The notes below the pieces were generated by a model. It was given only the letters and a program-made list of their open reading frames with translations. It did no database searches and was not told where the DNA came from. 7,376 nt of DNA from a candidate division NC10 bacterium CSP1-5 (GTDB taxonomy: Bacteria > Methylomirabilota > Methylomirabilia > Methylomirabilales > CSP1-5): the NCBI GenBank assembly GCA_001443495.1, contig LDXR01000035.1:1-7376 (forward strand), written 5' to 3'. Both the position numbers and the translations under genes were made by a program. Numbering within the stretch: the stretch's first letter is position 1; each line of letters starts with the position of its first letter. Of the stretch, positions 5,007-7,338 are shown one piece after another.

Positions 5007-5153
5007 CTCAGCCGTTCATCGAAGATTCTTGCGCCCGATACTACCTCCTTTCGCTGGCGTGCATGGTTGGCGATGAGATGCTGGCCGCAAACCGTGCTCC
5101 CGACGCCCCGCCTCTAACCGTCCTTACTAGATCCTCCTATCACCAGGCGGGCC

Positions 5154-5186
5154 AGAAACCCGGTTTCTTGAAGAAACCAGGTTTCT
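5154..5186. repeat. Two tandem 15-bp palindromes AGAAACCNGGTTTCT
   Basis: AGAAACC-C-GGTTTCT (5154-5168) and AGAAACC-A-GGTTTCT (5172-5186) are perfect 7-bp-arm palindromes separated by TGA. The inner halves, GGTTTCTT and AAGAAACC, are also complementary, so either two small hairpins or one central hairpin can form. I recall similar GAAACC/GGTTTC palindromes as abundant intergenic repeats in filamentous cyanobacteria and Chloroflexota. That link is from memory and was not checked. Confidence 0.7.
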
Positions 5187-5193
5187 CCAACGC

Positions 5194-5197
5194 CTAA
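5194..5197. repeat. Putative target-site duplication CTAA (left)
   Basis: CTAA directly abuts the left inverted end and is repeated at 7339-7342 next to the right end. Four bases can match by chance, so it supports the boundaries rather than proving them. Confidence 0.5.
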
Positions 5198-5255
5198 CGT
5201 AGCTTTTGCGCAACCGGGCCTCACATCGTTCTGTGAGGCTCGAAACTCAAACTTT
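5198..5255 (+). repeat. Left terminal inverted repeat of the IS, with internal hairpin
   Basis: The outer block 5198-5213 (ending CTTTTGCGCAA) and the inner block 5240-5255 (AAACTCAAACTTT region) match the right end. Between them GCCTCACA (5218-5225) and TGTGAGGC (5232-5239) form an 8-bp hairpin with a TCGTTC loop. The TGA stop and last codons of the transposase (5221 onward) lie inside this terminal repeat. Confidence 0.75.
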
Positions 5256-7194
5256 TGAACAGGGGCAGGACGTACTGGTAAGTCGCTTGCCCTGCCAAGA
5301 GAAACATCGAACCCGCAAACGGGCCATGTTCATCGAAAATCATGACGCGCCCGACGGCGTGATGCACCAGACGCACCCGGCAGTGGGCCACGATCTGCAC
5401 CAGTGTTTTCACTTCGGTCAGTGCTTGCCGCAGCGCCCAGTTGGCGTCGCGGACGATCTGTTGGGCCCAGCTCGCGGCCCAACGCACAAAGTTGGCGGCA
5501 AAGCGGCTGAAATGCTCTTGCAACTGCAAGCCGAGGGGCGAGCGCACCCACGGGCGGCGCATGGGAAAGACGCTTTTGCCTTCTTTGATGCCGGCTTCAA
5601 TCGTTTGCCGGGCGTTGTAATCGCCGAACCAGGCTTTCAGGTCCGTGGGCGGCGGGCGGTCGCCGTAGTAGAGCAAGGTGGTGTAGCTCAAGCCGGCCGG
5701 CAAGTGATAGCGCACCAGCAGCGCCTGCAGCCGATACGGGCACTCGGCGATGTGTTGCTGAGGCAACGCGACGGCTTCCGCGTTGCGGCCGACACGCGTC
5801 CAAGCCGTGGTCGGGGCGACTTGCCGGTGCAGCCGGGCGGTGGTCTGCCCGTTATGGGCTTTGGTGTACACGACATAGCCCATCTCGATCAGCCAAGTCA
5901 GATTATCGTCGGTGCTGAAGCCGGCATCGATCCGCAACACCATTGGCGGCGGATTGGGTTGTGTGGCATTCTCATTCTCCAGGGTGGCCAGCCAGTCCAG
6001 CAAGCGCGTTTGCTGCGCCTGCAGGGCCAGCCCCTCCTGCTCCAGTTTCGTCAGGCGCGCGGCATTCGCCCGCAAACCCCGCCCGGCCCGCTGTTGGCGT
6101 TTCTGGGCGCTTTCCAACCGCTGGCGGGCTTTCGCCAAATAACTGTGGGGACGCTCCGGGCGGCCCCGCGCTTCAAACGCCGCCGTCAAGCGCGTGGCCT
6201 CGGCCTGAGCCAGGCGTTCATCGTTCCGGGCCGTCTGCAACTGGTCAAACAATGCCCGGCGCTGCGCCCGCGCGCTGTCCAGGGCCGTCTGCACCGCTTC
6301 GATGTTGACCCCCAGGGCGTGCAGCTGCGCCTGGACCAACTCGGTGCGCCGCCGGGGGTGCAATCCCAGCGTGCTTTCCATCTGGCGCACCGCCGCCTGC
6401 AAGCACGCCGCCGATTGCGCCCGACCCGAATAGCGTTGGCTACTCAACAGCAACCGCTCACAGGGCCCGCCACTCAGGGAGGTGATCGCCGCTTGGTAGC
6501 CGTTGGCCACTTCGTCGTCCATCCAGCCAAAATCCGCGTCAGGATAGGTCGTGCTGGTGGGACTAACCCGCCGCCCGGTCAAATCCACATCGACCACCAG
6601 CGGGCCACCCCGGCGGAGCAACGCCATGACTTCCGCATCCAGGAAGGGTTGCGAGACCCGCTGCAACACGTCCAGCACGGCTTGCAGGGTCTGGTCATCA
6701 GCGGCGTCCAATGTCCGGCTCACGCCCGAATAGTGCGCAAAGGCCGGCTGCCCCCAACTGGCAATGACGGCCTGATCCTTGACCAAGGGCTGCGGCGCGT
6801 CGTTGAAGTCTTGCAAATGCTCCAATCCGGCCAGCACGCCGACCCAAAACTGGATCAACTTGGTCTGGGGCGTATGGTCGCGGGTGCGCTGGTCCAGCGG
6901 CACCGCTTCCAGTTGCTCAATCAACCCCAAGTGTCGGGCATACTGCCCCAGCAACACCAGCAGGGCATGGTCTGTCGTCACGTCCAACTCTTCCCGCCAG
7001 TCCCGCTCCCCGACCAGAGCGAGCACTTGTTCCGCTTCATAGCGGGGACCCGCCCGGATGACCAGTTGGTGCGCATCCGCTCGGGAACGGAAGTCATCGG
7101 ACGCGCAGACCCGGTAGGTCTCGCCGTCGCCCAGCCACGCCTGGAGGCTGGGAACCGGCACAAGTTGCGAAGGCGTTGGGTGCGTTACAATCAT
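5221..7194 (-). CDS. DDE transposase, IS1380-like with coiled-coil insertion
   Basis: This 657-residue enzyme should cut and join the element's ends by DDE chemistry with two metal ions in an RNase H-like fold. The first Asp is in LVVDVDLTGR (D202 or D204) and the second in VLRIDAGF (D423). The Glu is E533 in YNARQTIEAGIKEGK, which fits the Y-2-R-3-E-6-K signature (Y526, R529, E533, K540) and resembles the IS1380 RGTAEQ-IKEGK box. All three acidic residues are present. Residues 1-195 form an N-terminal DNA-binding and dimer-type region, inferred from position. Residues about 280-405 are rich in Ala, Arg, Gln and Glu with heptad-like leucines and form a long coiled-coil insertion between D1 and D2. 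This makes the protein longer than the roughly 420-480 residues I recall for IS1380 enzymes. Start at 7194 is supported by AGGAG 9 nt upstream. No frameshift or stop interrupts it. Confidence 0.88.
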   Translation of the reverse strand: MIVTHPTPSQLVPVPSLQAWLGDGETYRVCASDDFRSRADAHQLVIRAGPRYEAEQVLALVGERDWREELDVTTDHALLVLLGQYARHLGLIEQLEAVPLDQRTRDHTPQTKLIQFWVGVLAGLEHLQDFNDAPQPLVKDQAVIASWGQPAFAHYSGVSRTLDAADDQTLQAVLDVLQRVSQPFLDAEVMALLRRGGPLVVDVDLTGRRVSPTSTTYPDADFGWMDDEVANGYQAAITSLSGGPCERLLLSSQRYSGRAQSAACLQAAVRQMESTLGLHPRRRTELVQAQLHALGVNIEAVQTALDSARAQRRALFDQLQTARNDERLAQAEATRLTAAFEARGRPERPHSYLAKARQRLESAQKRQQRAGRGLRANAARLTKLEQEGLALQAQQTRLLDWLATLENENATQPNPPPMVLRIDAGFSTDDNLTWLIEMGYVVYTKAHNGQTTARLHRQVAPTTAWTRVGRNAEAVALPQQHIAECPYRLQALLVRYHLPAGLSYTTLLYYGDRPPPTDLKAWFGDYNARQTIEAGIKEGKSVFPMRRPWVRSPLGLQLQEHFSRFAANFVRWAASWAQQIVRDANWALRQALTEVKTLVQIVAHCRVRLVHHAVGRVMIFDEHGPFAGSMFLLAGQATYQYVLPLFKSLSFEPHRTM

Positions 7195-7203
7195 GGCGGA
7201 GCT

Positions 7204-7208
7204 CTCCT
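7204..7208 (-). promoter_or_regulatory. Ribosome binding site of the transposase
   Basis: AGGAG on the minus strand lies 9 nt before the ATG at 7194 and supports that start. Confidence 0.65.
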
Positions 7209-7217
7209 GAACGGTGA

Positions 7218-7245
7218 CAGAATGGGTTGGGGAACCTAGATTCTG
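7218..7245 (-). other. Inverted repeat in the transposase leader
   Basis: CAGAAT (7218-7223) pairs with ATTCTG (7240-7245), enclosing a nested GGTT-GGGG-AACC (7225-7236). It lies between the right inverted end and the RBS. It could fold in the leader RNA and dampen translation, as some IS leaders do, but this is weak evidence. Confidence 0.3.
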
Positions 7246-7276
7246 CCACTGTCGGGAGGGCTCTCGCCGGTTCCGT

Positions 7277-7282
7277 TGTCAA
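7277..7282 (-). promoter_or_regulatory. Possible -35 box (TTGACA) at the inner edge of the right IS end
   Basis: An exact TTGACA reads inward toward the transposase and overlaps the edge of the right terminal repeat, a common place for IS promoters. No matching -10 is found 16-18 bp downstream, so the promoter is doubtful. Confidence 0.25.
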
Positions 7283-7338
7283 AGTTCGAGTTTTCAGCCC
7301 GCCGAGACGAACTCGGCGCTAATTGCGCAAAAGTTAGG
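7281..7338 (-). repeat. Right terminal inverted repeat of the IS, with internal hairpin
   Basis: Read from the right end inward it begins CCTAACTTTTGCGCAA (7338-7323), matching the left end at 14 of 16. CGCCGAG (7300-7306) and CTCGGCG (7312-7318) form a 7-bp hairpin. The inner block with AAACTCGAACTTT (7293-7281) matches the left end. The hairpin begins exactly 20 bp from the element tip, as on the left. Confidence 0.75.

Follow-up and report, generated by a model that had tools for sequence, protein, structure and literature searches.

The subterminal spacers of the insertion sequence described here, and of its relatives, seem to be selected for the fold that they form rather than for their sequence, above all at the promoter-side end. 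The sequence comparison suggests this because at least eight different versions of the hairpin arms occur across the family, all of them still pairing. The element lies in a stretch of 7,376 nucleotides (contig LDXR01000035.1 of candidate division NC10 bacterium CSP1-5, assembly GCA_001443495.1), which is referred to here as the window.

The features of the element are collected in Table 1. The transposase gene runs from right to left within it. The tips had been predicted at 5198 and 7338, and these are exact, with a CTAA duplication directly outside both. Identical 4 bp target site duplications are present in 17 of the 19 elements for which both ends and flanks are readable (the one in the window included) and the boundaries are therefore regarded as fixed. 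CTAG, TTAA and TTAG are the commonest duplications among these 19. In L046, of clade C4, the duplication is TCGA, which is not of the usual YTAR type, and the outer blocks of clade C4 end in TTGCGCAC or TTGCGCAT. A copy of 926 bp, L050, has both ends, an exact duplication and a shortened transposase gene, and is a deletion derivative.

Table 1. Coordinates of the insertion sequence and its parts, numbered from the first base of the window.
Feature	Position	Strand	Basis or remarks
Insertion sequence	5198..7338	-	2141 bp; exact 4 bp target site duplication, inverted terminal blocks, same boundaries in relatives
Left target site duplication CTAA	5194..5197	.	YTAR-type 4 bp duplications also in relatives
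Right target site duplication CTAA	7339..7342	.	perfect match to left copy
Outer terminal block, transposase 3' end, CGTAGCTTTTGCGCAA	5198..5213	+	family consensus CSTAASNNTTGYGCAA
Left subterminal hairpin GCCTCACA-tcgttc-TGTGAGGC	5218..5239	+	extends to 5215-5242, one G-T included
Inner terminal block, left, GGCTCGAAACTCAAACTTT	5237..5255	+	inverted repeat I8
Transposase, Tn5-like fold	5221..7194	-	657 aa; D204, D423, E533; Y526-x2-R529-x3-E533-x6-K540
Leader stem 3' arm	7195..7223	-	ribosome site AGGAGA up to start codon 7194-7192
Leader stem 5' arm	7240..7268	-	includes presumed extended -10 TGGCAGAAT at 7248-7240
Inner terminal block, right, GGCTGAAAACTCGAACTTT	7281..7299	-	inverted repeat with left inner block
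Right (promoter-side) subterminal hairpin CGCCGAG-ttcgt-CTCGGCG	7300..7318	-	position-locked stems in most family clades
Outer terminal block, promoter end, CCTAACTTTTGCGCAA	7323..7338	-	family consensus

Palindromic sequences are also found in the flanks. At window positions 5145-5195, two 25-base arms form an imperfect palindrome in which AGAAACCNGGTTTCT occurs twice and which ends just before the left target site duplication. This palindrome is absent from all of the other loci fetched and looks like a host palindromic repeat adjoining the insertion site. Upstream of the element in L016, at approximately 125-320, an inverted pair of CTAGTATTACAGCGCAA is found about 200 bp apart and facing each other, which may be a small non-autonomous element edged by CTAG. 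The host flank of L018 contains a long palindrome, TTGTAACTGGAAGCATAG...CTATGCTTCCAGTTACAA, about 177 bases beyond the far end.

Alignment of 21 transposase sequences shows D204 and D423 to be invariant and E533 to be conserved in at least 90%; the YREK motif is complete (Y526, R529, E533 and K540). The best structural match of the AlphaFold2 model (mean pLDDT 81) is the Tn5 transposase (1muh, E 5e-6). Two 60-residue helices in the model, at 284-343 and 352-411, are predicted to be a coiled-coil hairpin of approximately 130 residues (284-411) inserted between D204 and D423. Many members of this transposase family also hit coiled-coil profiles, SMC among them.

The element had been described as IS1380-like. 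The NCBIfam IS1380 profile NF033539 is the best profile for it, and for 18 of the 21 members, yet the relationship is only a distant one, with 60.6 bits against a cut-off of 180 and a top member at only E 5.7e-21. Target duplications in the IS1380 family of ISfinder are of 4-5 bp, which the 4 bp duplications fit, and the element shares with this family a single-frame transposase with a DDE triad and a short AT-rich target duplication. It differs in the coiled coil inserted between D204 and D423 and in its structured subterminal spacers, which are not reported for IS1380 in the limited literature searched. Searches on IS1380 together with subterminal hairpins, or with a coiled coil, found nothing relevant, and with such limited coverage this absence proves little. 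Profiles of the IS701 family match few of the 21 members, and these weakly; this family also has a 4 bp duplication, but has mostly lost the tyrosine of YREK (PMC2266710), which is present here, and it was therefore rejected. The IS4 family, including Tn5 (IS50), fits in part. It shares the exact Y-2-R-3-E-6-K motif and the Tn5-like fold, yet its members generate target duplications of approximately 7-13 bp (PMC2266710) rather than 4 bp, and the coiled-coil insert is a further difference. The element belongs to a group of cut-and-paste DDE insertion sequences that is centred on Chloroflexota and distantly related to IS1380.

There is one copy only of the insertion sequence in its own genome. 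Within the same phylum, a protein search of 94 further genomes at E 1e-20 gave no relative; the relatives that were found, at about 50% identity or less, are from the phylum to which an Anaerolineales (Chloroflexota) genome belongs. With relatives around Chloroflexota only, recent transfer and a binning error are both possible. The contig of the window (C35) is a short member of a 40-contig assembly. Plasmid proteins searched with two of the transposases gave no match. Viral contigs scanned by protein, by alignment and by a strict end pattern contained no relative; a looser end pattern matched 10 viral stretches.

Read inward from the tip, the family end consensus has CSTAASNNTTGYGCAA, a spacer, ATCGTT or GATGTT at approximately 27-32 bases, a second spacer, and the inner block near GAACTTT. 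Three parts of the terminal repeat are thus conserved in sequence, these being the outer block, the ATCGTT-like core and the inner block, and the transposase presumably reads them as double-stranded DNA. The 14/16 match that had been noted between outer blocks CGTAGCTTTTGCGCAA and CCTAACTTTTGCGCAA was borne out. The inner blocks pair as a single 19 bp inverted repeat and end in AACTTT; the outer and inner blocks shared by the two ends are covered by the inverted repeats I7 and I8. The core, as ATCGTT, GATGTT or close variants, is present in most ends, including ones without a hairpin such as those of L018 and L050 on the far side. The TCGT seen at both ends of the element is therefore real, but is a motif of the terminal repeat rather than the loop feature that it had been taken for.

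Both subterminal hairpins in the window exist as predicted, each beginning at base 21 from its tip. The left hairpin shares bases with the final codons and the stop codon (5221-5223) of the transposase gene and is therefore partly under coding constraint. Equally good stems at the same position are found in shuffled 36-mers at frequencies of 0.0028 (right) and 0.00125 (left), and in host-flank 36-mers at 0.004 and 0.002, respectively. Folding as single-stranded DNA places each of these hairpins in the centroid structure, and both strands of both ends are predicted to fold. Rfam gave no match. An intrinsic terminator at the promoter-side end was rejected because there is no T run after the hairpin.

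The family sample consisted of about 35 relatives from Chloroflexota genomes, from which 58 ends were read. Each end was scored for its best Watson-Crick stem with a left arm starting in the first bases past the outer block. For comparison, the first 13-15 bases of one end were joined to the remainder of another, which preserves the column make-up and the conserved motifs. An ungapped alignment for counts per base pair was set aside in favour of this swap test, since the right arm slides. The mean stem score over the 58 ends is 11.43, against 8.72 +/- 0.32 for swapped halves, and none of 5000 swaps reached the observed value, to be read with the caution that the stem score and the position limits were chosen after inspection of the ends. 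Stems of at least 6 bp are present in 14 of the 58 ends, where 2.4 are expected from the swaps. With swaps confined to the same clade and side p = 0.0002, which controls only partly for the fact that the ends are not independent draws. Removal of the window changed the result little, with p still at the floor of 5000 swaps. Stems of at least 6 bp are found in 24% of the ends, whereas among random 36-mers they make up 3.8% in transposase genes and 3.5% in host flanks. The proposal that the paired shape itself is selected is therefore supported, in that halves of the same end pair far better than swapped halves, also when swaps stay inside one clade and side and when the window is left out.

In addition to the two in the window, arm pairs include GAGGCCGA/TCGGCCTC, GAGCCCG/CGGGCTC, CCAGAGC/GCTCTGG, CAGGAA/TTCCTG, GAGCCA/TGGCTC, GATGC/GCATC and GAACA/TGTTC. 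The left arm begins 17-23 bp from the tip and the loop is 3-16 nt, such that it is the right arm that slides. A fixed left arm with a sliding right arm fits a hairpin, not a spaced operator. Stems are almost wholly Watson-Crick, with few wobbles. In a comparison of G-U with A-C mismatches, meant to tell RNA from DNA action but of low power, the promoter-side stems (2 versus 3) show no G-U bias on the sense strand, and even control stems gave only 23 versus 15.

The original prediction had the two ends behaving alike, and this did not hold. When ends are scanned from the tip, those on the promoter side show a sharp peak in stem score at offset 16, right after the outer block (12.9 versus about 8 elsewhere), and the far ends show a weak peak that is not above the adjoining coding-region background. 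Within elements, the promoter-side end scores higher than the far end (paired Wilcoxon p = 0.004, n = 22). Far ends also score 9.65 against 8.17 in swaps (p = 6e-4, or p = 0.005 without the window). In the clade of the window all four promoter-side ends pair, with 7, 6, 5 and 4 bp, and among the far ends only that of the window does so, with 8 bp against 2-3 bp in the others. The far ends of L003, L016 and L017, its three closest relatives in this clade, and of L018 are without a stem. Most ends in clades C3 and C4 also have no hairpin. Because stemless ends retain the terminal blocks, end recognition does not depend on the stem. A middle segment without complementary arms in related copies had been named at the outset as the finding that would count against selection, and it does so for far ends but not for promoter-side ends. 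The promoter-side bias suggests that expression, or an inequality of the ends, is at stake rather than general end recognition.

A second structure, absent from the original prediction, is located between the hairpin and the gene. When the region from the tip to the start codon is folded, a long leader stem is seen in nearly every member, and the mean leader stem score in 26 members is 23.9 against 16.0 with swapped partners (swap maximum 17.9). Comparison and folding support a role for this stem in which transcripts entering from outside would have their ribosome site or start codon buried by it, and it is predicted to be a stronger structure than the subterminal hairpin. The read-through leader of the window has a folding energy of -60.1 kcal/mol (z = -4.45), and its minimum-energy fold contains the subterminal hairpin as well as the leader stem. 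A promoter can be recognised in 13 members, and in most of them the ribosome site or start codon is predicted to be less accessible in read-through RNA than in own-promoter RNA. In the window itself the difference in ribosome site exposure is small, 0.33 versus 0.40, and uses promoter positions that are guesses. Deletion in silico of the first 50 nt, which include the subterminal hairpin, hardly altered the predicted exposure of the ribosome site. This speaks against the hairpin being required for sequestration of the site; any role that it has in RNA must therefore be a separate one, such as hindering the polymerase or affecting RNA decay.

The tentatively preferred reading, ahead of dimer binding or an extruded cruciform but short of being probable, is that the two structures form a two-layer RNA guard against outside transcription. 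The two spacers flanking the core would be free in sequence and yet kept complementary, giving a hairpin around the core, above all on the promoter side. Outside transcripts that enter through this end would fold the subterminal hairpin and then the leader stem, of which the 5' arm would overlap the -10 region and the 3' arm would hold the ribosome site or start codon. RNA made from the element's own promoter would start within or past the 5' arm, so that the start of translation would be less shielded. On the model of IS200, which has two stem-loops, the subterminal hairpin may hinder incoming transcription or destabilise the RNA that results from it. The leader-stem layer is the part that comparison and folding support, while promoter positions and all functional steps are putative. 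Some far ends, including that of the window, have a hairpin, which incoming sense transcripts do not explain, and the lack of a T run past the hairpin and of a G-U bias on the sense strand also count against an RNA guard.

A leader stem guarding against impinging transcription is the plan found in IS10 and IS50. IS200 has two stem-loops, of which the first terminates impinging transcripts and the second masks the ribosome site (PMC3196728). The leader stem of the present family would resemble that of these three elements, having its 5' arm at or upstream of the element's own putative start and its 3' arm over the ribosome site or start codon. It is in the first stem that the family differs from IS200, this being inside the terminal repeat, without a terminator tail, and with arms that covary across the family.

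A role for the hairpins at the level of DNA, where single-stranded or extruded hairpins near the ends would be recognised by the transposase (through the coiled-coil insert, for example) or would affect synapsis, so that shape and not sequence would be retained, is unlikely without being far-fetched. The nearly constant position of the stem from the tip, the weaker excess at far ends, the scarcity of wobbles and the folding of both DNA strands at both ends in the window are all consistent with it. The stemless ends of L003, L016, L017, L018 and most of C3 and C4 are not, since their terminal blocks are kept. Arms of 5-8 bp with loops of up to 16 nt extrude poorly from duplex DNA, and the extruded structure that had been suggested is for this reason not supported. 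Hairpins shortly inside the end, with variable arms, are also a feature of the IS200/IS605 family, where they are read as single-stranded DNA by an HUH tyrosine transposase and there is no target duplication. The DDE enzyme and the target duplications set the present element apart, and rule out its membership of that family.

It is decidedly unlikely that the pairing is a mutational by-product, with template switching during replication repeatedly perfecting a quasi-palindrome, so that the arms change together without selection. This would yield matching arms of changing sequence, and the arms do sit in spacers without other constraint, but the process should not favour the promoter side, and there is no comparable excess in the 36-mers taken from within the transposase gene or from flanking host DNA. 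Recognition of the hairpin shape in DNA by the coiled-coil arm of the transposase or a host factor, at the promoter-side end and with functionally unequal ends, is markedly improbable. A palindromic operator, bound next to the promoter by a homodimer of the transposase or of a repressor and with half-sites that change along with its specificity, is highly improbable, even though the promoter-side hairpin sits just upstream of the promoter. Half-sites and spacing vary within clades and between the ends of one element (CGCCGAG-N5 and GCCTCACA-N6 in the window, AGCC-N4 and GAACA-N3 in L043), and one protein would need to read unrelated arms at varying spacing; the dimeric transposase binding site offered in the original prediction is therefore unlikely as well. 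Chance palindromes in the window only are scarcely credible: each arm pair alone has a frequency of a few per thousand, which is not vanishing in a genome scan, but the family-wide swap test stays at its floor without the window and refutes chance as a complete explanation for the promoter-side ends.

In the group to which this element belongs, a catalytic core of the Tn5 type is joined to a long coiled-coil insert that is poorly covered by the profiles of known families. The comparison of its ends suggests that the terminal repeat of a DDE insertion sequence can hold on to a fold even as its bases change. Adjoining this is a second conserved fold, which is predicted to hide the start of the transposase gene. 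If both folds act together as a guard against outside transcription, they would be a compact design for silencing a mobile gene when host transcription runs into it.
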